Positions 446 to 29,390 of a stretch of DNA of 31,004 bases are shown here, piece after piece. How positions within the stretch are numbered: position 1 is the stretch's first letter; the number at the start of each line of letters is the position of its first letter. Below the pieces are notes generated by a model, which saw only the letters and a list, made by a program, of their open reading frames with translations, did not search any database and was not told the origin of the DNA. Position numbers and translations under genes: made by a program. This DNA comes from a virus: positions 1-31,004 of IMG/VR virus record IMGVR_UViG_3300024346_000333, one strand, 5' to 3'.

Positions 446-949
446 ATGGAAGAACCAACAATAAAACGAGGCAGAGGCAGGCCGAAGGGTACAACAAAGA
501 AAAAAGCAGCTAAGAAAAAAGCAATCGGCGCCAAGATAAAGAAAGCAGCAACGAAGAAACCCACCAAGAAATTACCGAAGAAAAGCAGAGACGAGCTTCT
601 TGATGAGATTGAACTCGGATTTGATGATGGTCTGCCAGATCTTGAGAACATGAATACAGACGAGCTTAATGATGAAAACATTAAGGCCATGATTCGAGCG
701 AGAACGGCACAAGCTAAAAAACAGGAAAGATTAAACGCAGTGGCTCAGAGTTCACTTGTGGAGAAAGAAATGGCAACCAATAAAATGGTGAATTTATGCC
801 AGAGATTTGTTGATCGTTTAAACAATGTACCCGATAAATTGACCCCACAATTACACAAGAGAACAAAGTCAGAGATTAGAAAAAAAATGATTATGGAATT
901 TGATGAGCTAAAAGCGAGCTTTGTGGAATTTATAAACGAGGGGATTTAG
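446..949 (+). CDS. terminase small subunit, Nu1-like, with AT-hook/lysine-rich N-terminus
   Basis: This 167-aa protein precedes the GpA-type large subunit, the place of Nu1 in lambda. Residues 8-15 (RGRGRPKG) are an AT-hook and residues 18-47 are a Lys/Ala-rich histone-H1-like stretch. From about residue 105 the pattern VEKEMATNKMVN...RFVDRLNNVPDKLTPQL resembles the C-terminal part of Nu1-type subunits, where a helix, a P..L.PQL motif and a last helix bind the large subunit. Its job would be to recognise cos DNA and load the motor. The usual winged-helix N-terminus is missing and minor-groove-binding sequence takes its place. The family call rests on position and the C-terminal motif. A GGCGCC site lies at 527. 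Confidence 0.65.
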   Translation: MEEPTIKRGRGRPKGTTKKKAAKKKAIGAKIKKAATKKPTKKLPKKSRDELLDEIELGFDDGLPDLENMNTDELNDENIKAMIRARTAQAKKQERLNAVAQSSLVEKEMATNKMVNLCQRFVDRLNNVPDKLTPQLHKRTKSEIRKKMIMEFDELKASFVEFINEGI

Positions 950-1066
950 GTGATATTTACTTATATATTTCATGGATCATGTTTAGAGCTAACTTTAGAT
1001 TATTACAATAAACGAGAAATTTATATAAATGACCATAATATCACCGACATCTATGTGGGGTTTTGA
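950..1066 (+). CDS. small GTG-start protein between terminase genes (38 aa)
   Basis: The gap between the terminase genes is exactly one open frame: GTG at 950 follows the upstream TAG (947-949) directly, and the TGA (1064-1066) directly precedes the large terminase ATG at 1067. A GAGGGG ribosome site lies at 938-943, seven bases before the GTG. The peptide begins MIFTYIFHGS, is rich in Tyr and Ile and looks like two or three beta strands. No family is recognised. The exact fit without spare bases and the good ribosome site are the evidence; it may act as a coupling leader for the large subunit. Confidence 0.55.
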   Translation: MIFTYIFHGSCLELTLDYYNKREIYINDHNITDIYVGF

Positions 1067-3019
1067 ATGTTAGAATTTTGTAGATGTGGCAAGCCAGTAA
1101 AAAAAGCAGGCCGATGTGCAGCGTGCTATGAGGTAGACCAAAGAGCAAGAAGAAAACAGGAGAGCGAGGCCATTCACCTTGAAATGGTGAACACTGGCTT
1201 TGAGGATTTGTTAAGATCGCAGCTCATCCCATTATTCAAGCGAGAGACTGATGAGCTAATAACAAAGTGGACAGAAAAAAACATTGTTCTGCCAGATGGC
1301 GAGGGCTTCTTTTCAATCAGTGCGCCTAATTGGGATTTTGCCCCAGAGATGCAGTTTATTTTTGAGCAATTAAAAAACCCAGATGTTAAAGAGATCTATT
1401 TACAATTTGGCTCCCAGTCTTCAAAAACATTATTTGAAATATGCGCTATCTCTTGGTTTATTGCAGATCGTAAAGTTAACGGGATGTTCGTACCTCCAGA
1501 CGAGCGACTGATCAAGCGCTTACAGGTACGGATGAGCAATATTTGGGAAAAGTCTAAGATCATGAACTATGAACCAAAAAAAGGGGGCAAAGAGTTCTCA
1601 AGTTTTGGAACCAATCGAGTGGCTTGGGGACTGGCTACCTCTCCCTCATCATTGGCAGAGATGCCAGCCGACTTTGTTGTCTTTGATGAGATAGACGAAA
1701 TCAAGCCGCAGGACGTTAATCCGATTCAATTGGCCAGGTCAAGGGGCAGAACAAAGCCAAACTTTAAGTTGATACTAGCATCCACTCCAAAATTATTGGA
1801 AGGCAATGGAGGGATCCAAGATTACTATAATAATTCTAAAAGGTACGCAATAGAAATGCAATGCCCTCACTGCAAAGAGTGGAGCGAATTTACTGAGGAG
1901 TGCATCAGCGCCGAAGAGGGCGCCGATTATAGAGAGATTGAGGCTAAGGGGCTAGGCTTTGCTATTTGCCCTAGTAACGGATGCGAGATACGAGACGAGA
2001 GCCATGAGCAGATGGTGGTAACACAAAGATGGAAAGACCTGGATCCCGATTTACCATGCACCTATGTGGGATTTCACAAAGCATCTTGGAACACTATTCA
2101 CAATGATTTTAGTTCGATAGCAGCAAAGAGAGTAAAAGCAAAAGAAGAGGGGACAAACTCATTTAAGGATTTTTATAACTCAGAATGTGCCAAGCCGACA
2201 GACCTGGATGCGCTAGGTGGGGACATAGAACAGACAGAGCTGGCCCTTGAAAAATATAATCGCAAAGAGATCCCAGAGGATGTTAAGAGCATAACCATCG
2301 GAATAGATGTAGGAACAGACAGAGTTTATTGTGTTGTGATTGGATGGGCGCCAGATAACAAAACTTATCAGATTTATGAGCAAGAAATATCATGGGATAA
2401 CCGAGATTGGGAAAAAGTAGAGAGAGGTATTGGCCACCTACTTGATGATATTAGCAGGTTTAGATATCTTGGGACTGGTTTACGTCCTCAATTTGTAGCT
2501 GGCGCCATGGATTCTGGTTATCGAGCCAATTTAGTTTATGACTTTTGCCGCAGGAATCCGCTGTGGATCCCAGTAAAAGGCAGGCACCCCCTCAATCGCC
2601 CTTGGGTTATTAACCCAGCCGACCCAGCTAAAAAAATGGGAAGGCAAGCGCATGGAGTTAAACTATACACATTAAACTCGTATCATTGGCAGGACGTAAT
2701 GCAGACAGCACTAGAACGCCCAGCCGACTCGGCAGGAAGTTTCAATTTACCTTTTGACTTTCATGGCAGATATTTGGATCACCTTAATGGCGAAGTTAAA
2801 AAGCTCCGTAAAAATTCGCAAGGTTTACAGGTCGAGGTCTGGGAAAAGAAAAGCCGAACGTCAAAAAATGATTATAGAGATGCGACTATTTATGGGCTAG
2901 TCAGAGGTTACACAATCGACTTAGATAAATTGAGAGAGCCAATAAAAAAAGCGGAGGCAATCATTAACAGAATTCCAGAACATAATCCAAATGTAAGGGG
3001 AACAATCCGCAGAAGATAA
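1067..3019 (+). CDS. terminase large subunit (lambda GpA family)
   Basis: This is the ATPase-nuclease motor that cuts concatemers and pumps DNA into the prohead; 650 aa, close to lambda GpA (641). An ATP-binding loop GSQSSKT lies at residues 115-121, a Walker B with acidic residues (FVVFDEIDEI) at 203-212, and a C-terminal nuclease with GIDVG around 412 and a GAMDSGYR segment near 480. The GpA-type internal zinc site (CPHC ... CPSNGC) is at about 267-310. Unusually, the N-terminus carries another Cys cluster (C5, C7, C17, C20) that looks like a small zinc ribbon. The start abuts the previous stop (TGAATG), so translation is probably coupled. GGCGCC occurs at 1919, 2347 and 2501. Confidence in the family is high. 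Confidence 0.93.
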   Translation: MLEFCRCGKPVKKAGRCAACYEVDQRARRKQESEAIHLEMVNTGFEDLLRSQLIPLFKRETDELITKWTEKNIVLPDGEGFFSISAPNWDFAPEMQFIFEQLKNPDVKEIYLQFGSQSSKTLFEICAISWFIADRKVNGMFVPPDERLIKRLQVRMSNIWEKSKIMNYEPKKGGKEFSSFGTNRVAWGLATSPSSLAEMPADFVVFDEIDEIKPQDVNPIQLARSRGRTKPNFKLILASTPKLLEGNGGIQDYYNNSKRYAIEMQCPHCKEWSEFTEECISAEEGADYREIEAKGLGFAICPSNGCEIRDESHEQMVVTQRWKDLDPDLPCTYVGFHKASWNTIHNDFSSIAAKRVKAKEEGTNSFKDFYNSECAKPTDLDALGGDIEQTELALEKYNRKEIPEDVKSITIGIDVGTDRVYCVVIGWAPDNKTYQIYEQEISWDNRDWEKVERGIGHLLDDISRFRYLGTGLRPQFVAGAMDSGYRANLVYDFCRRNPLWIPVKGRHPLNRPWVINPADPAKKMGRQAHGVKLYTLNSYHWQDVMQTALERPADSAGSFNLPFDFHGRYLDHLNGEVKKLRKNSQGLQVEVWEKKSRTSKNDYRDATIYGLVRGYTIDLDKLREPIKKAEAIINRIPEHNPNVRGTIRRR

Positions 3020-3037
3020 AAAAATACATATTTTTAT

Positions 3038-3052
3038 AAAATAACTTATTTT
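3038..3052. repeat. AT-only near-perfect palindrome before the connector gene
   Basis: AAAATAA-C-TTATTTT is a 15-base palindrome in the short gap between the terminase and connector genes. The following ATG at 3059 has no recognisable Shine-Dalgarno sequence. A related element in the opposite orientation lies at 17206-17225. It may be a weak hairpin, a protein-binding site or simply AT-rich sequence. Confidence 0.35.
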
Positions 3053-3058
3053 TTATAC

Positions 3059-3304
3059 ATGGCTACAAATTGGACAGAGCTGGCTGCCGAAATTGGCGCA
3101 GCAATACAGAAGACGACAGAGACGGGGCAGCTCAATGTTCAGTCTGTTACAGATCTTGATGGTCTATCTACATCCTTTCATAGTTTAGAGGATATGATGA
3201 AGTTTCTGGAAATGGCAGAAAGCAAGGCGCAAGCCGAAGAAGATGCAGCCAGCATTCCAGTGCATCGGCCCGTATATATTAGAAAAAGTAGTTTTAGACG
3301 ATGA
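3059..3304 (+). CDS. head-tail connector protein, gpW-like
   Basis: An 81-aa protein between large terminase and portal, the position of lambda gpW (68 aa), which plugs the portal after packaging and prepares the head for tail joining. The central pattern VTDLDGLSTSFHSLEDMMKFL resembles the beta hairpin plus helix of gpW, and the tail RPVYIRKSSFRR is basic like the gpW C-terminus. The ATG lacks a ribosome site and is preceded by AT-only sequence. The stop overlaps the portal start (ATGA at 3301-3304). The assignment rests mainly on gene order with modest motif support. Confidence 0.65.
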   Translation: MATNWTELAAEIGAAIQKTTETGQLNVQSVTDLDGLSTSFHSLEDMMKFLEMAESKAQAEEDAASIPVHRPVYIRKSSFRR

Positions 3305-4836
3305 CAACTCAAGCCTACTCAGCAGGAACCACAAGTATATTAGAGTATAATATCCCACAGGCTCGAATGGGTGAGGATAAGCTACTTAAAAGCGATTACT
3401 ATACTATAATAGATAATTGCATGGATTTGGTTCGCAATAGTCCAGTGGCCAAATCAGTAGTTCAAGCGCTTGAGGATTATGTAGCAGGCTCTGGCTTGAC
3501 ACCGAACGCAGGAAATCAAACAGCTATGAGCGTTTGGGAGTCCTGGTCTTTTGGTCGAGTTGATCTAGCAGGAACAAAGACTTTTAATCAAGTATTTAGA
3601 GACATTGTGAGCAATATAGCCGCTACTGGTGATGTGTTATTAACCACTCCAATAGATCCGAGCATTGGTAACGATGCCATCTCAATGCGCTTAGAACTAA
3701 CAAGCGGCGCCAGAGTACTAACTCCCTACGATTACCAAGACGAAAAAGATCAATTTGGAAACATTGTGAAGTTTGGAGTGGCTTTTCGTGATGGTGTTGA
3801 GGTCGGTTATTATATTCAGAAAATGGATAACGATCGAGTCCAGGGTGTAGGGGTGAGAGATGCTAGGAATTTTGACTATTTGGAAAAATACGATAGAAAC
3901 ACAGGCCGCTTAAATGCTATTTTAATTCGCAGACCAGCAGGGATGGCATCAGAACAGACTAGAGGCTTGTCTATACTCACGCCAGTATTTACTGCCATAA
4001 AAGACTTGGACGATCTAATTGTAACAGCTATACAAGGATCAAGAAACAAAGCGCACCTATCAGTTATACTAAACACTCCGACCCCAAACGAGGCTTATTC
4101 TGGTTTAGGTGCAGTTGATTCAGAGGGCAGCTTGATTGAGGCCACCGATAACCAAGGACATGCGCAGATCATTGGATCATTGCCAGATGGGGCCATTATG
4201 ACGGCGCCAGAGGGGACATCTGCCCAGGTTATTAACTCAAGTGGCGACATTGATAGAGATGCCTTGATTTTAAGGGCGCAGAAGCTAGTGAGCGCAGGAG
4301 TAGGCATCCCATACGAAATTTTATTCAAAGATTTATCTAACATAAATTTCAGTGGTGGAAAATTGGCCTTTGACTCATTTTTCCGATTGTCTCAATTCTG
4401 GACAAATGAACTCATTAAAGTATTTCAAGAGATTAACAAGTGGATCCAAATCGAGGCCCATCTCAAAGGTTTTGGAGTTGAGGATTTGCAGCCAGAAAAT
4501 ATTATATTAGAATTTATAGGATCTCAAAATTATGTGGATGCAGATCCAGGTAAGAACTCAAAAGCTGAAAGCGAAAGAATTGGAAACAATTTAACAACTA
4601 GCAGCAGGTTATTAGCTCAAAAAGGTGATAACTATAACGCTATTTTATTGGAAAAAGTGAACGAGTACAAAGCAGCCATTGCCCTCAGTGAGAGTGAAGG
4701 CGTGCCGATTGAAATCTTAATGCCATCCTTACAGGCTCAAGATGTTTTGGAGCTTGAGGAACAGGTGCAAAAATTGGAAGAAGATGATGCAGAAAATGAA
4801 GAGATCTCTGCCAAGTTTAAAGGTTTAGAACTATGA
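3301..4836 (+). CDS. portal protein, lambda gpB family
   Basis: 511 aa, the usual size for lambda-type portals (about 500-530). The N-terminal part includes a conserved-looking NCMDLVRNSPVAKSVVQALED helix. The C-terminal half has the family hallmark in which a glycine-rich turn, VSAGVGIPYEILFKD, is followed by NINFSGGKLAFDSF. The dodecameric portal forms the DNA channel at one capsid vertex and docks the terminase during packaging and the connector afterwards. The gene overlaps both neighbours by ATGA (3301 and 4833), so connector, portal and protease are translationally coupled. The C-terminus is acidic and may contact scaffold. Confidence 0.92.
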   Translation: MTTQAYSAGTTSILEYNIPQARMGEDKLLKSDYYTIIDNCMDLVRNSPVAKSVVQALEDYVAGSGLTPNAGNQTAMSVWESWSFGRVDLAGTKTFNQVFRDIVSNIAATGDVLLTTPIDPSIGNDAISMRLELTSGARVLTPYDYQDEKDQFGNIVKFGVAFRDGVEVGYYIQKMDNDRVQGVGVRDARNFDYLEKYDRNTGRLNAILIRRPAGMASEQTRGLSILTPVFTAIKDLDDLIVTAIQGSRNKAHLSVILNTPTPNEAYSGLGAVDSEGSLIEATDNQGHAQIIGSLPDGAIMTAPEGTSAQVINSSGDIDRDALILRAQKLVSAGVGIPYEILFKDLSNINFSGGKLAFDSFFRLSQFWTNELIKVFQEINKWIQIEAHLKGFGVEDLQPENIILEFIGSQNYVDADPGKNSKAESERIGNNLTTSSRLLAQKGDNYNAILLEKVNEYKAAIALSESEGVPIEILMPSLQAQDVLELEEQVQKLEEDDAENEEISAKFKGLEL

Positions 4837-5981
4837 AAACAATATTGTTATTTGACGAGATTGGCGCCATGGGGATCACTCCCGAAATGATAGCCAGAGA
4901 GCTTGAAATTGCAAATGGTGAAGACATTGAGATCCGCATAAACAGCGGAGGTGGTGATGTATTCGATGGCATTTCTATTTTTAACTTTTTAAAAAATTAC
5001 AATGGTAATATTACAATCATTGTGGATGGCATAGCTGCATCCATTGCATCCATTATTGCCCTAGCAGGTGATGAGCTGATTATGAATGAAGGTTCATTTT
5101 TAATGGTTCACAATCCTTGGGGTGGGATGATGGGTGAAAGCCAAGATTTTAGAAAGCAGGCCGATTTACTTGATGGCATTCGTGATCAGTTGCTGGGAAT
5201 TTACGAGAGGGCCACAGACTTAGATCGTGGACAAATTCAGGCGATGATGGACAGCGAAACATGGCTTAATGCCGATCAAGCTATTGAGATGGGATTTGCA
5301 ACCAGTAAACAAGAATCAATAAAAGTAGTGGCAAATCTTGATAAAACAAAATATATTTTTAATAATATTCCGATGGAGTTGAAGAAAATGAAAACAGAGC
5401 AAGAAATAATTCACAATGAAGTTGCTGAACAAATAGAAGCTGGCGACATCGTGCTAGATGAGACTCCACTGGACGAGGTTAAGGCTGCCATGGAGGAACC
5501 AACAGCAGAAGATGAAATCCAAGACGAAGAGCTTGAAGTGGAAACTGAGGAAATGGTAGAAGTTGAAGAGCTTGCCATGGAGCCAGAAGAGGAAGAAAAA
5601 GCACTCTATACAGAGAGCGATCTTGAGGAAGCGGTCAGCGCAGCACTAGCAGCAGAGAATACGCGCCGAGACGAAATTAAAGCTTTATCATTCCCAGGTC
5701 AAGAGGATCTAGTGGATCAGCTTATCATTGAGAATGTGTCTATTGATAACGCTATGAAGCGCTTGATCGTAAACGCAAAAGAATTAAAAGCCAATTTTAC
5801 ACCGAAAGAAGATTCAAGCGGTGGACTATTGGAGAAATTGCAGAACTCAGCCCCGAAGTCATTAGACTCAAAAGAGGGTGAAGTGAAAACAATCGAATCA
5901 TTAAGATTACAATTAAAAAATGAGACAAATGAGCAGAAGCGCATAGGTCTTAGACGTGAAATTAACAAATTAAAGAAATAG
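4833..5981 (+). CDS. prohead protease (ClpP-like, S14-type) with C-terminal scaffold region
   Basis: Residues 1-160 have the ClpP/crotonase fold: INSGGGDVFDG at 37-47, the nucleophile Ser70 in DGIAAS, a following IIALAGDELIM, and the catalytic His93 in MVHNPW. This is the usual arrangement of lambda gpC-like and other phage head proteases. After about residue 190 the sequence changes to a highly acidic, helical region and then a conserved-looking segment with EEAVSAALAAEN and a final coiled coil, typical of a fused or nested scaffold. The enzyme would assemble inside the prohead, trim head proteins and destroy itself. It overlaps the portal gene by ATGA, and the capsid gene follows ten bases later. 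Confidence 0.88.
   Translation: MKTILLFDEIGAMGITPEMIARELEIANGEDIEIRINSGGGDVFDGISIFNFLKNYNGNITIIVDGIAASIASIIALAGDELIMNEGSFLMVHNPWGGMMGESQDFRKQADLLDGIRDQLLGIYERATDLDRGQIQAMMDSETWLNADQAIEMGFATSKQESIKVVANLDKTKYIFNNIPMELKKMKTEQEIIHNEVAEQIEAGDIVLDETPLDEVKAAMEEPTAEDEIQDEELEVETEEMVEVEELAMEPEEEEKALYTESDLEEAVSAALAAENTRRDEIKALSFPGQEDLVDQLIIENVSIDNAMKRLIVNAKELKANFTPKEDSSGGLLEKLQNSAPKSLDSKEGEVKTIESLRLQLKNETNEQKRIGLRREINKLKK
5388..5981 (+). CDS. possible nested scaffold protein (internal start in the protease gene)
   Basis: ATG at 5388 is in frame with the protease (codon 186) and preceded by GGAG at 5375-5378, nine bases upstream. It lies where the catalytic domain ends and the acidic helical part begins. 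The product would be 197 aa, similar in design to lambda Nu3, which is made from an internal start inside gene C. Another in-frame ATG at 5373 is possible. No other scaffold gene is present before the capsid gene. Expression of the short form is inference. Confidence 0.4.
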   Translation: MKTEQEIIHNEVAEQIEAGDIVLDETPLDEVKAAMEEPTAEDEIQDEELEVETEEMVEVEELAMEPEEEEKALYTESDLEEAVSAALAAENTRRDEIKALSFPGQEDLVDQLIIENVSIDNAMKRLIVNAKELKANFTPKEDSSGGLLEKLQNSAPKSLDSKEGEVKTIESLRLQLKNETNEQKRIGLRREINKLKK

Positions 5982-5990: not shown

Positions 5991-6893
5991 ATGGCTATTG
6001 TAGATTCAGACATTTTAGAAATTGCCCAGGAGTCTATTGACTCAAAACGTCCCGAGTTCGTGGAGCTAGAGTCTTTCTCACTTCAAGCGACTACTAATAG
6101 AGTAGACATCGAAGAAGGTGATGGCGTTAAAGTTGGCATTTATCAGACCAATGTGGCCTCTGATTTTAATGCAGACACAAATAACTACGAGACCGAAGAT
6201 GGTGGTGGCTTAGTTTACAAAACTATCCCCATGGAAAAGCATCACAAATCAACCTTTAAGATCAAAGCTCAAACCACTCGTTTTGACATGGTTAAAATGA
6301 TGGATGCAGCCACAGTTGCAGTTGCTAAAAAGAATAACACCTATGTGTACAACTTGATTTTGGCAGCAGCTTATGCAAATGATTACACAGCAGGCGCAGC
6401 CTCTACTTTTGATCATGAAGCAGTGGCCGATCTTTGGCAATTATCACAAGACGGGGAATTTGGCGATCAGAAATCAATGATCCTAACAAACCCCTATTAT
6501 GCGGCACTCTTAAAAGATCCAAATCTAGCAGAGTTTGACAAAGCTAACACAGACGAGACTTTGCGCGATGCAGTAGTTCGTAGACTCTATGATTTTGAGA
6601 CAATGAGTTCAAACACTCTAGCAGCTTCAACAGGTGCAACAGGTGAAAATCTAGTTGGCTTCATTACCGACCAGGCAGCTATCGCAGTTGGTACAGCACT
6701 CCCAGCTATCCAGGATGAAGAATCTGCAAGCCGTAACTCAATAATCGAAACGATCCAAGGGCCTAATGGTTTAGCTATGCAATTCCGCAAGCATACCGAC
6801 CCAGCTACTGGGATTGTTTGGGGATCAGTTGAGAATGTTATCGGCGCCGCAGTTATGGATGAAACTCGCCTAACTCGTATCAAATCAGCATAA
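5991..6893 (+). CDS. major capsid protein
   Basis: A 300-aa protein directly downstream of the protease/scaffold gene, with a strong AGGAG ribosome site and a terminator-like hairpin after it, as expected for the most abundant head protein. The N-terminus (MAIVDSDILEIAQE) is helical and is followed by a beta-rich E-loop-like stretch (YETEDGGGLVYKTIPMEKHHKS). The last third (FRKHTDPATGIVWGSVENVIGAAVMDETRL) has the P-domain/A-domain feel of HK97-fold capsids. No decoration-protein gene lies between protease and capsid. The lambda gpE family is possible, but the assignment rests on position, size and expression signals. GGCGCC is at 6843. Confidence 0.8.
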   Translation: MAIVDSDILEIAQESIDSKRPEFVELESFSLQATTNRVDIEEGDGVKVGIYQTNVASDFNADTNNYETEDGGGLVYKTIPMEKHHKSTFKIKAQTTRFDMVKMMDAATVAVAKKNNTYVYNLILAAAYANDYTAGAASTFDHEAVADLWQLSQDGEFGDQKSMILTNPYYAALLKDPNLAEFDKANTDETLRDAVVRRLYDFETMSSNTLAASTGATGENLVGFITDQAAIAVGTALPAIQDEESASRNSIIETIQGPNGLAMQFRKHTDPATGIVWGSVENVIGAAVMDETRLTRIKSA

Positions 6894-8539: not shown

Positions 8540-8540
8540 A

Positions 8541-9713
8541 ATGCAAAGTAAAGACTTCGCCCTACGGCATGGATTGAAAAAAGAAAAAGGAAACCAACCA
8601 TCAGCAGCCGACTTATATGGTGGTGGGACAAACGTAGTAACAGGCGCCAATTGTCAGACTAGGTGGGAAGAGTTACAGATCACCGACACACCAGAGAAAT
8701 ATCAAGATATTTCGAACACAGGCAATCAGTGGATGAAAACTAAAGAAGTATCAAACGTCCCAGTCACTTGGACAGGTCGGAGTGCTTTTTTTGTTGATAA
8801 TTCACTAACAGAGCTAGTCAGTGCAATGGGTTACGAGGATTTGAGTGGGCCGATCAATTATGATACTACAAAATACTCCCATTTGATCTCATTGTTTCCA
8901 ATGGGAAAAGATCAAAGACTATACACAGCAGCAGAGGCAGCACTAGCAACAGCAAACGCAGGTTTATCGCCAGCTTATGCAGCAGGTGATTATATCAACG
9001 CATACATGAAGCTAGGGACTGAGATGGGGCCTTATGATAAATTTTGCACAAACGCAAATATATCAGAATTTACTCTCTCATGTGAGTCAAAAAACCCCTT
9101 GATGATGGAGTTCACAGGCCAAGGTGAAGCGGCAACCTATGATACGTCAAAAACCGAGTCAAGCACCTGGACAGACCGAGTTGGATGCGATGAAAACAAG
9201 TTTTTCATGCGCCATGCCTCATGTTTTTTTGGCCCAGTCGGCGCCCCTATTGAAAAGGCCATTTTTAACTTTTCAATCTCATCGGCTCAAGGTGTAGCGG
9301 ATGATCTTTTTCCCACAGGGACAGCAAACTCTGGACTAAGCAGAGCGGAGCCAGTATCGACAGGCGAGCAAACCATCCAAGTAGAGTTCCAAATTAATAA
9401 ACATGATACTATTGATTATAAAAACTATGAGCAGGCAGACATTGAATGTCAGCTTAAAATATCTTTTGTTCGTGGTGTAAAAAGTTTGGATTTGTTGCTG
9501 CCAGCTTTGAACGTGATTAGTGCAGAGCCAGAGGTAAGCGATGGGTCAAAAATTAATATCACAGCAGAGGCACATATCCCATGTGGCGCAGATCCATTTA
9601 CTACTGAGAGATCAATTAGTGGAACGGAACAAGTCTTATTATATCCTCAGACTCCTTTTTACATGATGTTATCAAATGCAAATGGTGAAAATGGTCTACG
9701 ATTTGAAGGATAA
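8541..9713 (+). CDS. major tail tube protein
   Basis: A 390-aa, beta-rich protein with a strong ribosome site (TTAGGAGTAAATTAAA before ATG), placed before the tail chaperones and followed by the best intrinsic terminator in the structural region. These are normal features of a siphovirus tail tube gene. Repeated strand patterns such as NVPVTWTGRSAFFV and KAIFNFSISSAQG fit the beta-sandwich tube fold. At 390 aa it is larger than lambda V (246 aa), so it may carry an extra surface domain. Function is inferred from order and composition. GGCGCC occurs at 8643 and 9240. Confidence 0.72.
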   Translation: MQSKDFALRHGLKKEKGNQPSAADLYGGGTNVVTGANCQTRWEELQITDTPEKYQDISNTGNQWMKTKEVSNVPVTWTGRSAFFVDNSLTELVSAMGYEDLSGPINYDTTKYSHLISLFPMGKDQRLYTAAEAALATANAGLSPAYAAGDYINAYMKLGTEMGPYDKFCTNANISEFTLSCESKNPLMMEFTGQGEAATYDTSKTESSTWTDRVGCDENKFFMRHASCFFGPVGAPIEKAIFNFSISSAQGVADDLFPTGTANSGLSRAEPVSTGEQTIQVEFQINKHDTIDYKNYEQADIECQLKISFVRGVKSLDLLLPALNVISAEPEVSDGSKINITAEAHIPCGADPFTTERSISGTEQVLLYPQTPFYMMLSNANGENGLRFEG

Positions 9714-10264: not shown

Positions 10265-10667
10265 ATTTGGCTTTGATTCGTCTAGCTGCAATAGTTGTAA
10301 ATATGACAAAGAGGAATCAGACGAGCTAATTGATGGGGTGCCGCATTGTCTCAAAGAAGGTTATTGTAAACATTTAAAAAATGTTAAAATGATCATAAAA
10401 AAAGAAGGTTTAGACGGCAACCCTATGAATTTCTATAAAGCTGGATGTTTGGAGCGTTTTGAGGCCATTACAGAGCAAATTATAGCCTTATCGCCTTATG
10501 ATGGCATGAAACTACCCACAATATCATTTTATCCTCACATGGAGGGGGAGGTGGATCATGGCGCCGTTGATTTCATTCAATTATTAAGCCTTAAAATAAG
10601 CTATATTAGAAATAGTATGCTTGATCAAAGAATGAAGGAAGCAAAGCGCCATGGCTCTGGAATTTAG
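10239..10667 (+). CDS. tail assembly chaperone extension, gpT-like (probably expressed by frameshift)
   Basis: An open frame of about 142 codons overlaps the end of the G-like gene and the start of the tape measure gene (10651). Its possible independent starts (TTG 10239, ATG 10251) have no convincing ribosome site, which fits expression as the C-terminal part of a frameshifted chaperone. The N-terminal part holds a Cys cluster (CNSCKYD ... CLKEGYCKH) that could bind zinc. The rest is helical, ending near RMKEAKRHGSGI. In lambda-like tails the T part binds tail tube while G binds the tape measure. GGCGCC is at 10560. Confidence 0.65.
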   Translation: MLKWMKINEFGFDSSSCNSCKYDKEESDELIDGVPHCLKEGYCKHLKNVKMIIKKEGLDGNPMNFYKAGCLERFEAITEQIIALSPYDGMKLPTISFYPHMEGEVDHGAVDFIQLLSLKISYIRNSMLDQRMKEAKRHGSGI

Positions 10668-16223: not shown

Positions 16224-16605
16224 AAGATCAGATTTAAATAGCAATTTGGACTGCCCATATTGCCCAGGTAAAAAAGTATTTACCAATGGGTGCGGAGGTA
16301 AAGGGATGAAAGTGGTTAATAAATTACTTTCATTTTTACCATCATCCAAATTATTTCATGGAGCTTGCTCATTGCATGATATAGTCTATCAATTGGTTAG
16401 CATGGCGCCGATTAAGGTAGAATATCCCAATGGTAAAATAATAGTTTTGAGGAATAGACTAGATTGTGATAATATATGGCTAAAGGAAATGTTACAACTA
16501 GCAGACCATGCTGGATGGTATAAAAAAGTCATGATTTGGGCAGCTCATAGAAATTACAAGCTAGTCAGAAAAAACGGCGCCAAATTTTACAAACATGATC
16601 ATTGA
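16201..16605 (+). CDS. phospholipase A2-like protein (134 aa)
   Basis: Residues 30-35 (GCGGKG) resemble the calcium-binding glycine loop of secreted phospholipases A2. Residues 56-63 (CSLHDIVY) match the C..HD..Y core with the catalytic His59-Asp60. Residues 89-90 give a later CD pair like the cysteine-aspartate of the second helix. The remainder is basic, with an aromatic tail. The expected reaction is calcium-dependent hydrolysis of the sn-2 ester of phospholipids. It has no signal peptide. It sits inside the tail cluster and upstream of a membrane protein, suggesting a role in lysis or envelope damage. The alternative is a DUF1353-like phage protein, which also has an HD..Y motif. GGCGCC at 16404 and 16576. 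Confidence 0.55.
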   Translation: MNKIQTFKRSDLNSNLDCPYCPGKKVFTNGCGGKGMKVVNKLLSFLPSSKLFHGACSLHDIVYQLVSMAPIKVEYPNGKIIVLRNRLDCDNIWLKEMLQLADHAGWYKKVMIWAAHRNYKLVRKNGAKFYKHDH

Positions 16606-20348: not shown

Positions 20349-21050
20349 ATGAAGATCATTACTAAGAGGGTTATAAAGCCCCCTAGAGTCGTACTATATG
20401 CCCCTGAGGGAGTCGGAAAGACTACTTTCGGAACACAAGCGCCATCCCCTTTATTTATTTGCACAGAGCGAGGAACAGATAACTTTGATGTGCCTAGAGT
20501 GAATTGTCAGACTTGGGACGAAGTTACCGAGGCATTGAACTATCTAGCAGCAGGAAAGCATGAGTTTAAAACTTTAGTCATTGACACACTGGACTGGCTT
20601 GAGGCTTTGCTTATCAAGGATATATGTGAGAAAGCAGAAAAGAAATCCATTGAAGAATTTGGATTCGGTAAAGGTTTTACACTACTAGAGGAACGCACTA
20701 GAGAGTTTATAATGGGCCTTGATTACCTAATCGACAAGGGCATAAATATCTTTTTACTAGCTCATGCAAAAATTGAAAAATTCCAAGATCCAGAAATCAC
20801 TGAGGCAATGGATAGATGGACGATGAAATGCCATAAGAGAACAGCAGCAGTCTACAAAGAGTGGGCCGATGCCGTACTATTTGCAAACCATGATCGAATG
20901 GTGGTAGATGGAAAAGCCAAGGGAGGTTATACTCGCCTAGTTTGGGGAACTCATACAGCAGCTAGAGATGCAAAGAACAGATATAACATTCCAGACTTGA
21001 CAGAATTAGATTACAATAAACTAGAACCATATTTTCAAGGACAAAAATAG
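20349..21050 (+). CDS. Sak4-like RecA-fold ATPase (recombinase)
   Basis: 233 aa, AACAAAGGA ribosome site. Walker A APEGVGKTTF at 18-27, a Walker B-like TLVIDTLDWLEAL near 76-88, and a FLLAHAKIEKF segment near 137-147. This is the common architecture of the small AAA-type phage ATPases called Sak4, which anneal single strands or exchange strands for phage recombination. Sak4 genes are usually next to SSB genes, and here an SSB-like gene follows at once (the stop abuts the ATG). An alternative name is phage nucleotide-binding protein, with the same fold. Confidence 0.8.
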   Translation: MKIITKRVIKPPRVVLYAPEGVGKTTFGTQAPSPLFICTERGTDNFDVPRVNCQTWDEVTEALNYLAAGKHEFKTLVIDTLDWLEALLIKDICEKAEKKSIEEFGFGKGFTLLEERTREFIMGLDYLIDKGINIFLLAHAKIEKFQDPEITEAMDRWTMKCHKRTAAVYKEWADAVLFANHDRMVVDGKAKGGYTRLVWGTHTAARDAKNRYNIPDLTELDYNKLEPYFQGQK

Positions 21051-21626
21051 ATGAATCAGCAAAAAGGCACCGACTTCGGATGGGATGCAAATCTCTCCCA
21101 GCAATGGATTAACGAGCAAGCGAGCGAGCAAAAAGAAAAGCGAGAGATCCAGGATGCAGGTAATTATGAGTTCAAAATTATTTCAATGGAACGCAAAAGC
21201 GTTAAACCTGGTGGCAAATATGCAGGGGCGCCGATGGCAGCACTTAAGTATGAAATCGGCGGCACTATTGTTTTTGATTGGATCATCCTAAACACAGACT
21301 ACAATCAGAAAATAGCTAATTTCATGAAGTCGGTTTTTGGTGATCAACAACCACCTCCTGGATTTTGGGATCAATTAGTGGGCCGCTCTATATTGTTGGA
21401 AGTCGATAAAACTGAGGAAACATTCACCCCAAGCGATAAAAATGAGCCAGTTACATTTTACAAAAACAATGTGAAAAAATACTTAGATAAAACCCTAGAG
21501 CATAATATGGGAGCATTTGAAACGCAGGCGCCGAAAAAAGAAACCACTGCCCCCTCTTATAATAATCCGATTCCAGCGGCGCCGACTACTACAATACCAC
21601 CAATGGATGACATTTTGCCATTTTAA
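21051..21626 (+). CDS. SSB-like single-strand DNA-binding protein
   Basis: 191 aa. The middle has an OB-like strand pattern (GNYEFKIISMERK, PMAALKYEIGGTIVFDWIIL, LVGRSILLEVDK, VTFYKNNVKKYL), similar to DUF669-type phage proteins. The tail is Pro/Thr-rich and ends PPMDDILPF, which resembles the acidic-hydrophobic tip (DDDIPF) that bacterial SSB uses to recruit partners. It would coat single strands and load the Sak4-like ATPase encoded just upstream. Three GGCGCC sites fall in this gene, two of them in the flexible Pro/Ala tail. Confidence 0.72.
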   Translation: MNQQKGTDFGWDANLSQQWINEQASEQKEKREIQDAGNYEFKIISMERKSVKPGGKYAGAPMAALKYEIGGTIVFDWIILNTDYNQKIANFMKSVFGDQQPPPGFWDQLVGRSILLEVDKTEETFTPSDKNEPVTFYKNNVKKYLDKTLEHNMGAFETQAPKKETTAPSYNNPIPAAPTTTIPPMDDILPF

Positions 21627-21816: not shown

Positions 21817-21870
21817 ACGCAACAGAAAATGTTTAAAAATTGAGATCCTTTAAATTAATTTTAGTTGCGT
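21817..21870 (+). other. long-loop inverted repeat downstream of the tRNA-like gene
   Basis: ACGCAAC (21817-21823) and GTTGCGT (21864-21870) are perfectly complementary, with a partly paired AT-rich extension inside. It may be an RNA structure at the end of the tRNA-like transcript or a control element for the helicase-methyltransferase gene. Confidence 0.45.
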
Positions 21871-21918
21871 GATGGCGATCGGCCTGGTGGCTCAACTTAA
21901 CCGATATGATTCGATTTC

Positions 21919-21940
21919 ATACGATCGTATAAAACACAAA
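21919..21940 (+). promoter_or_regulatory. 12-bp palindrome plus CGTATAAAACACAAA box upstream of helicase-methyltransferase
   Basis: ATACGATCGTAT (21919-21930) is a perfect palindrome, a credible operator. It runs into CGTATAAAACACAAA (21926-21940), a 15-base string repeated exactly at 29376-29390 upstream of the endolysin. The TATAAA could be a -10 element, but no -35 consensus is visible, so a phage- or host-specific promoter is possible. Confidence 0.5.
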
Positions 21941-21964
21941 CCAACAAACCAACAAAGGAAACAA

Positions 21965-24163
21965 ATGGACTACAATCTATTTTTAAAGCAAAAAGAGAAC
22001 AATGTTATAAAGTCAGGTTTTGACATTGCTGAATCAGAACTGAATAAAAACCTATTTGATTTTCAAAAGCATATAGTGAAAAAAGCACTCAAGCATGGTA
22101 AATATGCCATCTTTGCAGATTGCGGACTAGGGAAAACACTTATGCAACTTGAATGGGCTTATCAGGTATCAAAGAAGGAAAGCAAACCGTCATTAATTTT
22201 AGCACCTTTGGCAGTAGTTCAGCAAACAATAGAACAGGGCGCAAAATTTGGCATTAATGTTGAGCGGTTAAAATCCGATGTATTTGGCCAAGGTGTTTAC
22301 ATAACTAATTACGAGCAAATAGATAATTTTGACCTAGGTCAGTTTGTCTCAGTTGCAATTGATGAAGCTTCTATTTTAAAAAATTATAGCGGAGCATTAA
22401 AAAATAAAATCATTAAAAGATTTAAAAATACAAAATACAAAACAGCATGGACTGCCACTCCATCGCCAAACGATCACATTGAATTGGGAAATATTAGTGA
22501 GTTTTTAGACGTTTTATCAAGCCGTAAAATGGTATCTGAGTTTTTTATTAATGACATTTTCTCAAAAGATGAATTACTAACAAAAAGCAAGTGGCGACTA
22601 AAATCCCATGCAGAAGATACTTTTTGGAAATGGGTTTCAATGTGGGCAGTAGCTGCAGCTACTCCATCAGATTTAGGATATAACTCTCAAGGCTATAATC
22701 TGCCTAGTTTGGATTTTATAAACGTAGAGGTTAAAACAAAAAAGCAGGACAATGGAAAGCTATTTAACGATAACACAGTGACTGCTACTTCTTTTTATAA
22801 ACAGCTTAGTCAAACCTTGGAAGATCGAGCAAATAAAGTTTTATCAATTGTTGAGGGTAGCGCAGAGAATTTTATTATCTGGGTAAAAACCGATGAGGAT
22901 GGCGACTATATTAACAAAATGCTGCCAAATGCTAAACAAGTAAAGGGAAGCGATAAAGTAGAGTACAAAGAAAATACACTAAATGGATTTGCTAAAAATG
23001 AATTTAAGGTTCTAATTACCAAAGCAAAGATTGCGCAGTTTGGGTTAAATTATCAAAATTGTCATAATCAAATTTTTATGAGCTATGATTTTAGTTTTGA
23101 ATCACTTTATCAAGCTGTGAGAAGGTCGTATAGATTTGGCCAAAAAAACGATGTTTCTATTTATATGATTTCATTAGATACAATGGAAAATGTTAATAGC
23201 ACACTAAAAAGAAAACAGCAACAATTTCACGAAATGCAAACTAAAATGGTAAATAAAATGAAACAAGAATTTATAGATAATACAGCCAGTGAGATTATTC
23301 ACGAAACTGATAACTACAAATTAATAAATGACGATTGCATAAAAGCTATGCAGAGCCTAGAGGAAGAGTCAATAGATTATAGTTTCTTTTCGCCACCTTT
23401 TAGTGATTTATACATGTACTCAAGCGATAAAAGAGATCTAAGTAACAGCGCAGACTATGATCAATTTTTTAGCCACTTTGAGTATGTTTGTAAAGATTTA
23501 CTTAGAATTTTAAAGTCTGGCAGATTAGTCTCAATGCATTTGACTCAATTATCTACAACTATCACAAACAATGGATATATTTCAATCGTAGACTTTAGGG
23601 GTGATATAATTAGAATGATGCAGAAGTTAGGCTATTATTTTCATGCTGAGGTGGCAATTAGAAAGGACCCCAAAACAATTGCACAAAGAACCAAAGCTCA
23701 AAGCTTATTGCATGGCACAACTAAAAAAGATTCAACAAAGGTGAGAATGGCTTTTCCCGATTATATTTTAACATTTAAAAAGCCAGGTGAAAACTTAGAG
23801 CCAATTAACCATGAAGGCAATGGAGTCCCTTTCGATCTTTGGTGTAAAATAGCAGAACCGATATGGATGCAAGTAGACGAAAAAAAAGTATTAAGTGTTA
23901 AACAAGTAAATAAGGGAAATGATGAAAAGCACATGACGCCTACTCAGTTGCAGCCCATTGAATGGCTATATATGCTATACACAAACCCCAATGATACTGT
24001 TTTTAGTCCTTTTAGTGGGATTGGCTCGGAAGGTTATCAAGCTGTAAAAATGGGAAGAAAATACATCGGAGCTGAGTTAAAAAAGAACTACTGGGAAACC
24101 TCAATAGAAAACTTAAATTTAGCGGAGCATGAAGCCACAAATGTAATTGATTTATTTTCATAA
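21965..24163 (+). CDS. SNF2-type helicase fused to SPPF-class DNA methyltransferase
   Basis: Start at ATG 21965 (732 aa) with AAAGGA upstream; the ATG at 21869 is rejected as it has no ribosome site and includes the palindrome and leader. Residues 1-450 are a superfamily 2 helicase: GLGKT at 54-58, DEAS at 133-136, TATPSPND at 163-170, and a motif VI segment QAVRRSYRFGQKND. Residues 450-732 are a DNA methyltransferase with catalytic SPPF at 476-479 and then the AdoMet-binding FSPFSGIGSEG at 680-690. The order catalytic first, AdoMet last is the beta class, and SPPF is typical of N4-cytosine enzymes. Such fusions occur in other phages, probably to protect DNA from restriction. There is no nuclease partner. 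The gene itself has no GGCGCC. Confidence 0.85.
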   Translation: MDYNLFLKQKENNVIKSGFDIAESELNKNLFDFQKHIVKKALKHGKYAIFADCGLGKTLMQLEWAYQVSKKESKPSLILAPLAVVQQTIEQGAKFGINVERLKSDVFGQGVYITNYEQIDNFDLGQFVSVAIDEASILKNYSGALKNKIIKRFKNTKYKTAWTATPSPNDHIELGNISEFLDVLSSRKMVSEFFINDIFSKDELLTKSKWRLKSHAEDTFWKWVSMWAVAAATPSDLGYNSQGYNLPSLDFINVEVKTKKQDNGKLFNDNTVTATSFYKQLSQTLEDRANKVLSIVEGSAENFIIWVKTDEDGDYINKMLPNAKQVKGSDKVEYKENTLNGFAKNEFKVLITKAKIAQFGLNYQNCHNQIFMSYDFSFESLYQAVRRSYRFGQKNDVSIYMISLDTMENVNSTLKRKQQQFHEMQTKMVNKMKQEFIDNTASEIIHETDNYKLINDDCIKAMQSLEEESIDYSFFSPPFSDLYMYSSDKRDLSNSADYDQFFSHFEYVCKDLLRILKSGRLVSMHLTQLSTTITNNGYISIVDFRGDIIRMMQKLGYYFHAEVAIRKDPKTIAQRTKAQSLLHGTTKKDSTKVRMAFPDYILTFKKPGENLEPINHEGNGVPFDLWCKIAEPIWMQVDEKKVLSVKQVNKGNDEKHMTPTQLQPIEWLYMLYTNPNDTVFSPFSGIGSEGYQAVKMGRKYIGAELKKNYWETSIENLNLAEHEATNVIDLFS

Positions 24164-24230: not shown

Positions 24231-26150
24231 ATGAGTTATAAAAGTATTATTGACGATTATATCCACACACCTATTTTTGAAGGTGGCAGGAATCACGCAC
24301 TATTTAAGGCCGCAGCAGCTTGTAAGGATGAAGGTTATACACAAGCCGACACAGAGCAAGCACTCACACAAAAAGCGCAGGGAGATGGCTTAAATGCGAG
24401 AGAAATCAATCAGTGCATTCAATCAGCATTTGCCCGACCAGTTAGTGAGCTGCCAAGATTGGAAGGTGGCCAAATAGGGCAAAATCTATCTTGGGATGAG
24501 GACCTTAATGGCCTTATCCATGCTCCAAAAAGAAAAATAGAAGTTTACAAAGCGGAAATCCCACCACCTGGATCCAATTGGTTAGAAGATTATAAAAGAC
24601 TAATTGAAAGCGCTTTTTTAGAAAATGAAAAAATAAACATTGTTAAAAATGTTTATGAGCGAGAAGGGAAATACATCCCAGGTGGCAAAGGTGAAAACAG
24701 CCCCTTTGAACAAATTACCAAATCAGACAGCGATCAATTTCATGATTGGATTGGTCATGATAATGGTGTATTTGTCAGAATCAATCCGATGGATGGACAA
24801 GGTGGCGCCGATAAAAATGTCACTTCTCATCGTCATGTTTTGGTAGAATCCGACACATTACCCCCAGAACAGCAACTAGCAATTTATAGAGAATTACAGC
24901 TTCCAGTGAGTGGCCTCATTCATTCTGGTGGTAAATCAGTCCATGCGTGGGTGAGAGTTGAAGCCGAAAACATAGAGCAATACAAAAAAAGATGTGCTTA
25001 TGTTTATGAAGTGCTAGAGGCTCAAGGCTTTGAGATTGACCACTCAAATAAAAACCCCTCAAGGCTCTCAAGATTACCAGGAGTCAAGAGAGGCGAGAAC
25101 TATCAATATTTAATACAGGAGAGATCCGGACAGCCAGATTTTGAGACCTGGGTAAAATGGTGGGAAACAAAAGCCAATGGATTGCCAGAGATCGAGAGCT
25201 TTGAGGATCTAGCCAGAGAAGACCCACCACTTGCTCCCGTTTTGATTGATGGGGTATTAAGGCAAGGCCACAAGCTACTCATCGGAGGCCCATCCAAAGC
25301 AGGAAAGTCATTTTGGCTAATTAATCTAGCCTTGTCTCTATCAAGTGGGAAGCCATTTTTCAATTTTGCAGTCAAACCATCTAGTGTATTATATGTGAAT
25401 TTTGAAATTGATAGACCATCATTTGCAGACAGAGTAAAGAAAACAGCCAAGGCCCTCAATATTAATAATTTTGCAAATTTGGATGTTTGGAACCTAAGAG
25501 GAAAGTCGGCAGGAATTGAGGAACTAGCACCGCAAATAATTAGAAACATTAAAAGCCGTAATTATGGCGCCGTAATATTAGATCCTACTTATAAATTCAT
25601 GGGGAACAGAGACGAAAACAATGCAGGCGATATTACCGAGTTAATGAATTATTTAGATCAGATAGCAGTCCAGACAGGATGTTCAATTATTATTGCGAGT
25701 CATTTCTCTAAGGGTAAACAAGGCGATAAAAATCAGACTGATCGGATTAGTGGCTCTGGTGTTTTTGGGAGGGATCCCGATGCCATTGTTACCTTGTCAG
25801 AGGTTAAAGATGAACCTAATGGCTATAAAATGGAAGGGACTCTAAGAGAATTCAAGCCGTTCGACCCAGTTGGGGTAAGGTTTGAATATCCCATCCATGT
25901 GGTAGATGATGAGCTGGGACAGGCAGAGGTAGACGGACAAACACAAAAGGGGATAACTAGCCAGGAACTCATTGAGGCAGCTCTCACAATAACAGGGGGA
26001 GACATTGCTGAAAATATACCATGGAAAACATTTAAAGCATCATTGAATTATAGCGATGGAAAACTCAAAAGATTCATTGAGGGAATGAAGCCCCATGATG
26101 GACTATTAATACAATTGATAGCTGGCTATGTGGTAATAAAAGAAGGATAA
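24231..26150 (+). CDS. primase-helicase fusion (AEP-type primase, RepA-like helicase)
   Basis: 639 aa. The N-terminal ~70 residues are helical, like a primase C-terminal/PriCT-type module. Around 200-290, VLVESD, HSGGKSVHAW (231-240) and NPSRLSRLPGVKRG follow the archaeo-eukaryotic primase pattern, with metal-binding acids and the S.H motif. Residues 345-550 are a RecA-fold helicase: Walker A GGPSKAGKS (352-360), Walker B VILDPTYKF (448-456) and a later IIASHFSKG, as in RSF1010 RepA. The C-terminal 80 residues are a winged-helix-like end. It would open the origin and prime synthesis, and the phage would depend on a host polymerase. A perfect terminator follows. GGCGCC at 24804 and 25566. Confidence 0.87.
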   Translation: MSYKSIIDDYIHTPIFEGGRNHALFKAAAACKDEGYTQADTEQALTQKAQGDGLNAREINQCIQSAFARPVSELPRLEGGQIGQNLSWDEDLNGLIHAPKRKIEVYKAEIPPPGSNWLEDYKRLIESAFLENEKINIVKNVYEREGKYIPGGKGENSPFEQITKSDSDQFHDWIGHDNGVFVRINPMDGQGGADKNVTSHRHVLVESDTLPPEQQLAIYRELQLPVSGLIHSGGKSVHAWVRVEAENIEQYKKRCAYVYEVLEAQGFEIDHSNKNPSRLSRLPGVKRGENYQYLIQERSGQPDFETWVKWWETKANGLPEIESFEDLAREDPPLAPVLIDGVLRQGHKLLIGGPSKAGKSFWLINLALSLSSGKPFFNFAVKPSSVLYVNFEIDRPSFADRVKKTAKALNINNFANLDVWNLRGKSAGIEELAPQIIRNIKSRNYGAVILDPTYKFMGNRDENNAGDITELMNYLDQIAVQTGCSIIIASHFSKGKQGDKNQTDRISGSGVFGRDPDAIVTLSEVKDEPNGYKMEGTLREFKPFDPVGVRFEYPIHVVDDELGQAEVDGQTQKGITSQELIEAALTITGGDIAENIPWKTFKASLNYSDGKLKRFIEGMKPHDGLLIQLIAGYVVIKEG

Positions 26151-26187: not shown

Positions 26188-26203
26188 ATTAATACTTTGG
26201 ATT

Positions 26204-26236: not shown

Positions 26237-26256
26237 ACAAAACAAAGGTGTAAAAA

Positions 26257-26442: not shown

Positions 26443-26456
26443 CCAACAAGGCAAAT

Positions 26457-26645: not shown

Positions 26646-26833
26646 GAACATTGCAGCAAAAAATAGAACTCGCTGAGAAAACCCACAGGCACCTCATGGA
26701 CATCATAAAAACAGATCGATACAGACAATCAACTAGAATACAGCACAGGGGAATCATCGCCAGGTTAGAGCGACTATATAATGAATATAGAGAAACCTAT
26801 GGCGCCGACTATACTAGCGAGGGAACAAAATGA
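26642..26833 (+). CDS. hypothetical helical protein (63 aa)
   Basis: Starts at an ATGA overlap and ends at an ATGA overlap, so it is coupled on both sides. Basic and helical (MRTLQQKIELAEKTHRHLMD). It has a GGCGCC in the YGAD codons near the end (26801). Similar length and helical nature suggest it could pair with the preceding protein; this is only a guess. Confidence 0.6.
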   Translation: MRTLQQKIELAEKTHRHLMDIIKTDRYRQSTRIQHRGIIARLERLYNEYRETYGADYTSEGTK

Positions 26834-27515: not shown

Positions 27516-27528
27516 CAAGGAGAGAACC

Positions 27529-27768
27529 ATGGCCGCAAGAAAAGGACAAAAGCCTTACATACCACCAGGAGAGACACCTATCAAGCTACTATTTGACTAT
27601 GCAGGCTATAAAACCACCAAAGAAATAGCCGAAGCGGTGGGAGTGGCGCCGAATACACTGAGAAAATGGGATAGAACAGATGACTGGAGACAATGGGCTT
27701 TGCAAAAAATAGGCTTTGAAATAGTTTACGTCGGATTAGACGAGGAAGAGGAAGAGGTAGAAGAATGA
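27529..27768 (+). CDS. helix-turn-helix protein with acidic tail (79 aa)
   Basis: I choose ATG 27529 (AAGGAGAGAACC upstream) rather than ATG 27508. The segment TTKEIAEAVGVAPNTLRKW is a clear helix-turn-helix of the terminase-small-subunit/transposase-like HTH_23 type. The end is a run of Glu residues that may mimic DNA or modulate binding. The stop overlaps the next ATG (ATGA). Contains GGCGCC at 27645 in the turn of the HTH. Likely a transcriptional regulator; a second DNA-packaging adaptor cannot be excluded. Confidence 0.65.
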   Translation: MAARKGQKPYIPPGETPIKLLFDYAGYKTTKEIAEAVGVAPNTLRKWDRTDDWRQWALQKIGFEIVYVGLDEEEEEVEE

Positions 27769-28079: not shown

Positions 28080-28216
28080 ACAAAATACCATGGATGATAA
28101 CAGAAATTATAGCCATGCCCTTTGTTTTAGTTGGCTACATTTACGAATCAATAGCCACATCTTTTATTGTAGGCAAAGAAATAAACAAAAATCATTGGAA
28201 CAAATATGGAAAATGA
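28076..28216 (+). CDS. single-span membrane peptide (46 aa)
   Basis: The start overlaps the MazG-like stop (ATGA). Hydrophobic segment at residues 7-35 (WMITEIIAMPFVLVGYIY) and a basic C-terminal tail. No family. Coupling and composition support it as real, and it could serve as a holin-type or host-modifying peptide. Confidence 0.45.
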   Translation: MNKIPWMITEIIAMPFVLVGYIYESIATSFIVGKEINKNHWNKYGK

Positions 28217-28295
28217 ATGGATATTCGTGGCGCCGTTTATGACAATTATCGTAACTATGGCCATCATATTAAAAGATACTAGAGGGAAGAAATGA
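28206..28295 (+). CDS. single-span membrane micropeptide (29 aa)
   Basis: ATG 28206 lies inside the previous frame, with GGAA upstream, and the stop overlaps the next ATG (ATGA at 28292-28295). The peptide MENEWIFVAPFMTIIVTMAI plus a basic end is one membrane span. It contains the GGCGCC at 28229 (Ala-Pro codons). Very short, but the exact overlap at its end is consistent with the operon's pattern. Confidence 0.4.
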   Translation: MENEWIFVAPFMTIIVTMAIILKDTRGKK

Positions 28296-28684
28296 ACTAC
28301 TTTAAACCAACTAACAGCACCGACCAGGTGAACGATAAACTACTGGCCAAAGTAGTCGATCACATTGATTATATACTCACTCAGTTTAGGATGAGAATAG
28401 TCCACAGCAAAGTAAATAATCCACTTAAAGAGTTTACTAAGCAAGGACTCAGCGATCTGAGAGAGATTGATCATAACCATTGGTTAAGAGTTATGAACGC
28501 ATATTTTTTAAGGTTAAAAAGCTACTTCATGGAGGGTGTTTTCTTTGTTGGCGCCGTTAAACTAAATGAGCTAATATCGATCTATACTAAGCAGCTCATG
28601 AACATTAAAAACGCCTCAATGGATGACTACGAACACATTATTATCTATCTATTTGGGTTATTCTCAAAAAACACAAGGAAATAA
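28292..28684 (+). CDS. hypothetical helical protein (130 aa)
   Basis: Starts by ATGA overlap. Mostly alpha-helical with a hydrophobic middle (YFMEGVFFVGAVKLNELISIY) that is amphipathic rather than clearly membrane-spanning. No motif is recognised. It is the longest protein of the small-gene block. GGCGCC at 28550. Confidence 0.65.
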   Translation: MNYFKPTNSTDQVNDKLLAKVVDHIDYILTQFRMRIVHSKVNNPLKEFTKQGLSDLREIDHNHWLRVMNAYFLRLKSYFMEGVFFVGAVKLNELISIYTKQLMNIKNASMDDYEHIIIYLFGLFSKNTRK

Positions 28685-28783
28685 ATGAAAAAAATTAGAG
28701 ACTACCCTTTAAATCTTAATTTTAAAAATTTAAATTTTACATCAAGTAACGACTCGTTAAAAGGACTCGTACTTCTAGCTTAA
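28685..28783 (+). CDS. possible 32-aa peptide
   Basis: ATG 28685 directly follows the preceding stop and runs to TAA 28783. The sequence is Asn/Leu-rich (MKKIRDYPLNLNFKN). There is no ribosome site other than coupling and no known motif. It may be untranslated leader before the hairpin downstream. Confidence 0.25.
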   Translation: MKKIRDYPLNLNFKNLNFTSSNDSLKGLVLLA

Positions 28784-28820
28784 GCCAGTTTTTGCCAAAA
28801 AAACAAACTGGCGCATTAAG
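28779..28820 (+). other. large hairpin and structured non-coding stretch (to 28968)
   Basis: CTTAAGCCAGTTT (28779-28791) pairs with AAACTGGC-gca-TTAAG (28805-28820), 13 bp with a three-base bulge around a 13-nt loop. The following bases to 28968 hold no convincing gene; AAGTG (28827-28831) and CACTT (about 28853-28857) can form a second stem. Then comes a C/A-rich leader and ribosome site for the next gene. Terminator, ncRNA or 5' regulatory RNA are all possible. Confidence 0.5.
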
Positions 28821-28968
28821 CGAAACAAGTGCGATGTGATTTTAAAAAATCCCACTTCTTTCTCTATACGCCTTTTGTTTATCAAACTGAACAAGTAGAG
28901 GTAAAATTTAAAAATAATATCGTTACAAAAAAAACCAATAAAACCAACCAACAAAACAAAGGTACACA

Positions 28969-29352
28969 ATGACTATTGTAGAAATAGAGCAGCTACTTCT
29001 TGAGCTGCAAGATAGAGTCATAGCACTCGAAACAAAGCCAAAATCAAAATCAAAATCAAAAGTTAAATTTGAGAAAAGCCTATCTTTGGAAGGCTATGTT
29101 TCTCTGGTATATCCAAACGCAAAAAAAAGCATTGAAAGACGTTTAAACGTAGAATGTAATGTGGAAATAAATCACGTCATTGAGAAAGCTCAGGCCGATC
29201 AAAAATTCATGGATGATTTTGCCAGTTGGAAAATGGGAGACGATACAGCCAGGCCAACCATCTACTTTAGTAATGGCTATGGAATCAGTCAGCTAAAATT
29301 TGGGACTGCTGGATTCTTTGCTAAGAAATTCGACAAAAACACAGAAAACTAA
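28969..29352 (+). CDS. hypothetical protein with KS repeat (127 aa)
   Basis: Strong CAACAAAACAAAGG leader. N-terminal coiled coil (EIEQLLLELQDRVIALE), then a KSKSKSK linker encoded by a tandem AAATCA hexamer (29041-29058), then an alpha/beta domain ending with a Gly/Phe-rich segment. No known family. It looks like an oligomerising module joined to a small domain. Confidence 0.65.
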   Translation: MTIVEIEQLLLELQDRVIALETKPKSKSKSKVKFEKSLSLEGYVSLVYPNAKKSIERRLNVECNVEINHVIEKAQADQKFMDDFASWKMGDDTARPTIYFSNGYGISQLKFGTAGFFAKKFDKNTEN

Positions 29353-29370
29353 TACACTATTTTTTTTAGT

Positions 29371-29390
29371 GGCGCCGTATAAAACACAAA
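29371..29390 (+). promoter_or_regulatory. intergenic GGCGCC plus CGTATAAAACACAAA box upstream of endolysin
   Basis: GGCGCC (29371-29376) adjoins the 15-base string CGTATAAAACACAAA (29376-29390) that also occurs at 21926-21940. It is the only GGCGCC in this genome outside genes. The TATAAA may be a -10 box for endolysin expression; no -35 is evident. Confidence 0.45.

Follow-up and report, generated by a model that had tools for sequence, protein, structure and literature searches.

We analysed a 31,004-base virus record, IMGVR_UViG_3300024346_000333 (hereafter the window; G+C 38.6%), and found that the hexamer GGCGCC, present in 31 copies (1.0 per kb; the first at 527, the last at 29371-29376), is the core of a polar word, 5'-GGCGCCG-3', iterated in this phage and in its relatives. 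The excess of GGCGCC is real, strong and reproducible, and its mechanism is unproven; we tentatively favour, with a probability of roughly 40%, a Chi-like polar site for the end-processing and recombination machinery of the host. A first-pass annotation had reported the same count, about one per kb in an AT-rich phage, and had attributed it to selection or mutation at the DNA level rather than to codon preference, a view supported here by codon shuffles, by the use of several reading frames, by an intergenic site and by the relatives.

Both null models that the annotation had proposed were applied. Synonymous-codon shuffles of open reading frames (ORFs) of at least 70 amino acids (2,000 runs) yielded 4.4 ± 2.0 copies with a maximum of 14, against 28 observed, i.e., an approximately six-fold excess over what protein coding and codon choice allow, and GGCGCC ranked first by z among all hexamers (11.5). 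Unmasked Markov models of the window expected 2.0 copies at order 1, 3.2 at order 2, 10.7 at order 3 and 21.5 at order 4. The last two values are high because the GGCGCC copies themselves supply the sub-words of the motif; once the sites are masked, the expectation across orders 1 to 4 is 1.7 to 3.2 copies rather than about 30, and the order-4 value drops to 2.8, which led us to reject the order-4 "prediction" of about 21 copies as circular. Within ORFs of at least 70 amino acids, 19 sites are read as Gly-Ala and 9 as Ala-Pro. Two of the three remaining sites lie in short ORFs (26642-26833, Gly-Ala; 28206-28295, Ala-Pro), and with these counted the tally agrees with the 20 Gly-Ala, 10 Ala-Pro and one intergenic site described earlier. 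The sites are distributed over 15 large genes with a spacing indistinguishable from random (coefficient of variation 0.79, P 0.13). CGGCCG occurs twice, as the annotation had stated, and no other six-base palindrome comes near GGCGCC, the runner-up by order-1 ratio being AGCGCT (12 versus 4.5 expected).

The annotation had taken the palindrome itself as the enriched unit, and this has to be revised. In 26 of the 31 window sites the GGCGCC core is followed by G or preceded by C, whereas GGCGCC lacking this flank is near chance (5 versus 2.4 expected). With both strands pooled, GGCGCCG/CGGCGCC is the top 7-mer of the window (26 versus 2.3 expected in ORFs, z 13.9) and also of four relatives, namely G003 (17 versus 0.6, z 21.5), G005 (7 versus 0.6), G002 (5 versus 0.4) and the later-found contig L033 (6 versus 0.4). 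The exceptions are two small contigs close to G003 in sequence: the flank is present at 2 of 5 sites in G004 and at 3 of 5 in L019. The heptamer is often extended to TGGCGCCG or GGCGCCGA. The codon CCG is used at 6 of the 9 Ala-Pro sites compared with 33 of 321 Pro codons overall, and the flank is therefore not merely codon context. In a literature search, no relevant report of an over-representation of GGCGCCG came up.

We then compared the window with its relatives, defined as contigs with roughly 70-75% terminase identity plus two found via the AAA_24 gene described below. In every relative tested, no palindromic hexamer is more enriched than GGCGCC (z 12 in G003, a 34-kb relative), so that the enrichment sought in relatives by the first-pass annotation is present throughout, at about 0.3-0.8 copies per kb. 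The individual sites move. Of the window sites that can be aligned to G003, 4 of 25 are shared (4 of 10 in the reverse comparison), a rate similar to that of other all-G/C hexamers (10 of 76); density is therefore maintained while single positions turn over, and we rejected conserved functional positions as an explanation. Thus, the excess of GGCGCC and of its heptamer characterises the phage group and is kept at density while sites move. L020, a more distant relative with a tail protein of only 51% identity, has no GGCGCC at all. This contig also carries a separate methyltransferase gene (540-1262) and three copies of CGGCCG versus 0.2 expected.

Since the heptamer is asymmetric, each site has an orientation. 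GGCGCCG (+) is found at 1919..1925 (common to G002), 10560..10566, 13746..13752, 16404..16410, 17592..17598 (common to G003 and G005), 17927..17933, 21227..21233 and 25566..25572 (both common to G003, with matching context also in L033), 21527..21533, 24804..24810, 26801..26807 and 28229..28235 (both in the short ORFs), 27645..27651, 28550..28556 and 29371..29377 (intergenic). CGGCGCC (-) is found at 526..532, 3705..3711 (common to G003 and G004), 4202..4208, 9239..9245, 12129..12135, 13277..13283, 16575..16581 and 17404..17410. Three sites read CGGCGCCG and carry the heptamer on both strands (6842..6849, 19196..19203 and 21577..21584), and the five unflanked copies are at 2347..2352, 2501..2506, 4863..4868, 8643..8648 and 10765..10770. 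With a boundary at 17.5 kb, chosen post hoc, the one-sided sites divide into 4 + and 8 - on the left and 11 + and 0 - on the right (Fisher 0.0013). L033, which covers the right half, has 5 + and 1 -, and counting the distinct sites of all relatives by hand, split at the window midpoint, gave 8 + to 10 - on the left and 20 + to 5 - on the right (Fisher 0.024). Codon context alone favours + over - by about 2:1, and it is therefore the left half that is unusual. Altogether, the orientation trend is suggestive only.

These features bring to mind the Chi sites of E. coli (GCTGGTGG). An arrangement with - sites on the left and + sites on the right would, given the polarity of E. coli Chi, meet a nuclease entering from either end. 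Like Chi, GGCGCCG is an asymmetric GC-rich word of 7-8 bases that is over-represented in phage DNA, shows an orientation trend and accompanies a phage-borne recombinase. The latter is an AAA_24 ATPase (20349..21050, +) that shares about 41% identity with a phage protein carrying the annotation Sak4-like single-stranded DNA annealing protein, and we take it to be the phage's own recombination gene. Phages of E. coli that lack a RecBCD inhibitor carry the polar Chi word in excess, among them phages with their own recombinase (observed/expected 2.5) and the virulent phage T5 (Bobay et al. 2013, PMC3784561). By analogy, GGCGCCG, whose density across the group stays near 0.3 to 1 per kb as its positions turn over, would be read by a host end-processing and recombination nuclease of the RecBCD or AddAB type; with many copies of the word, phage DNA would escape breakdown and be channelled towards recombination or the formation of concatemers. 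The same word would then be expected in the host genome. The presence of sites in several frames, in both orientations and between genes is in line with such a role.

Several observations weigh against this proposal. At 1 per kb the word has about five times the density of Chi in E. coli phages, its over-representation is far larger too, and its core is a perfect palindrome, which is unusual for Chi. Moreover, the trend in orientation is a modest one, seen with boundaries picked after looking, against a coding bias towards + and in a genome whose physical ends are unmapped. A RecBCD inhibitor could be encoded among the small genes to which no function was assigned. Finally, the word is known here from phage DNA alone: alignment of the terminase and primase against 84,980 prokaryote genomes gave no match and thus no host genome in which to look for it. 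If GGCGCCG is the Chi of the host, phage DNA would have predicted that sequence for a bacterium not yet in culture and would help to identify the host.

The next most probable explanation, which we regard as a serious possibility, is an imprint of the kind that produces highly iterated palindromes (HIPs), words whose function, as for HIP1 (GCGATCGC) of cyanobacteria, has been an open question since the 1990s. Here, host cytosine methylation at GGCGCC-like sites together with methylation-directed mismatch repair, or a similar mutational ratchet, would convert near-misses into the motif in all DNA replicating in the cell, phage DNA included, and no phage function would be needed. The parallel with HIP1 had already been drawn in the first-pass annotation and is well founded. 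The remark that the motif is different holds for HIP1 itself only, as GGCGCC is the alternative HIP of Calothrix PCC 7103, where it occurs roughly once per kb and is linked to GrCGyC methyltransferases (Elhai 2015, PMC4390886). The top Calothrix octamer, CAGGCGCC, is likewise asymmetric, and methylation-directed mismatch repair has been proposed as the source of HIPs (Elhai's G-meC model; PMC4390886). In addition, N4-methylcytosine (m4C) at GGCGCC is known in Rhizobium (PMC8709438). The window shares with the HIPs a six-base core as in Calothrix and a frame-independent over-representation of about one per kb, far above expectation, and the free turnover of sites fits an imprint as well. In contrast to a HIP, the excess is confined to an asymmetric 7-mer rather than a palindrome, is carried by a phage group and does not depend on a phage methyltransferase. 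The window word thus combines the core and density of the Calothrix HIP with the polarity of Chi.

A ratchet predicts that one-base neighbours of the word are depleted. In the pooled ORFs of the window and relatives the neighbours are at expectation overall (48 versus 51.9) and one of them, GGCGCAG, is enriched (18 versus 6.3), whereas several others are slightly depleted (30 versus 45.6 with GGCGCAG set aside, P about 0.02); these counts do not discriminate a ratchet from selection. The near-chance count of the unflanked palindrome also argues against an imprint, and we noticed no integrase among the ORFs, which would leave the phage little time replicating as host DNA. This explanation, too, lacks a host. 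We slightly preferred a Chi-like site to a HIP-type imprint because of the asymmetry of the word and its orientation trend.

Is the iteration of a GC-rich word peculiar to this group? We examined 15 other phages, mostly AT-rich, as controls, comprising seven whole or 50-kb sequences, seven marine or Acinetobacter stretches, and Acinetobacter phage WCHABP12. Neither GGCGCC nor the heptamer is in excess in the seven plus seven sequences or in WCHABP12. Acinetobacter phage HFM1 (OR246918, 1-50000; L028) iterates another word, ACGGCG, which occurs 68 times in ORFs versus 14.3 expected (z 16 against codon shuffles) and 78 times in the 50 kb. The parallel with the window is that this phage, too, is AT-rich and iterates a GC-rich word, whose copies occupy all frames and both orientations; however, the word differs (the two overlap in CGGCG) and the phage is unrelated. 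The ACGGCG excess is absent from WCHABP12, and ACGGCG is not among the top words of Ab3-TPeters. The group studied here is therefore not alone among AT-rich phages in iterating a GC-rich word. It is tempting to speculate that GGCGCCG is a polar genome-wide signal, neither Chi nor a methylation mark, under density selection in the phage lineage and its host, and that with words such as ACGGCG of HFM1 it forms a wider, unrecognised class in AT-rich phages, although we consider this unlikely. Top words with z of about 10 were also seen in the first 15 kb of Thalassomonas phage BA3 (L042; ACCGGG/ACCCGGT) and Croceibacter phage P2559S (L041; GGCTTA/CTTAAGC), where they are possibly repeats inside genes.

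The roles listed by the first-pass annotation included a methylation mark, a protein-binding site and a strand-exchange signal; of these, a binding or strand-exchange (Chi-like) signal now fits best and is unproven. A binding site for a protein encoded by the phage group itself, such as a replication, packaging or transcription factor, kept at high density, appears doubtful. It would account for an excess found in every relative with protein identities of roughly 60-75% and missing from L020, but most sites lie within genes, neither at fixed intervals nor at conserved places, and we identified no candidate protein.

That the motif is read and preserved by a methyltransferase of the phage is very improbable. 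The window does encode an SNF2-type helicase fused to an N6_N4 DNA methyltransferase (N6_N4_Mtase family; 21869..24163, +). The N6_N4_Mtase match is absent from G003, which keeps its GGCGCC excess, and the gene is absent from L033, which keeps its excess as well; the phage methyltransferase is therefore unnecessary, and we rejected it as the cause; nor is a mark set by the phage enzyme needed. The gene itself holds no GGCGCC, with only 0.13 expected from its codons. It lies between the 21051-type gene and the primase, at a place where relatives have an ORF of a GIY-YIG/NUMOD3-type homing endonuclease (8298-9095 in G003, numbered as L010; 3434-4441 in L033). A restriction target was likewise rejected as the explanation, since restriction-modification targets would be avoided in phage DNA and GGCGCC is enriched. 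Lastly, codon-pair or amino-acid composition, or a chance outlier among the 2,080 hexamers that remain when strands are merged, might be invoked in that Gly-Ala is the commonest frame and the top words of some control phages reach z 8 to 16, but is ruled out by the codon shuffles, the two frames plus an intergenic site, and replication in relatives at other positions.

The phage is uncultured and probably marine: the distant matches of a peptidase-like gene are to Vibrio, Polaribacter and Sulfurimonas phages, which suggests such a setting. No near phage was found in GenBank, and the distant phage matches indicate no single host. A small phage that carries such a word at full density, and has relatives with moving sites and steady density, offers an easier test system for iterated words than a cyanobacterial chromosome.

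Among the remaining genes, G003 (L010) has a PAPS-reductase/DUF3440 gene adjoining a ParB-looking ORF (2509-4361), by eye an IbrA/IbrB-like pair, the ParB part being without a Pfam match. A search for transfer RNAs, made for clues to the host, found none. At 29855-30745 the window contains two adjoining ORFs composed of repeated WYLNG..HREDGPA units, the second of which is a weak match to DUF6745.

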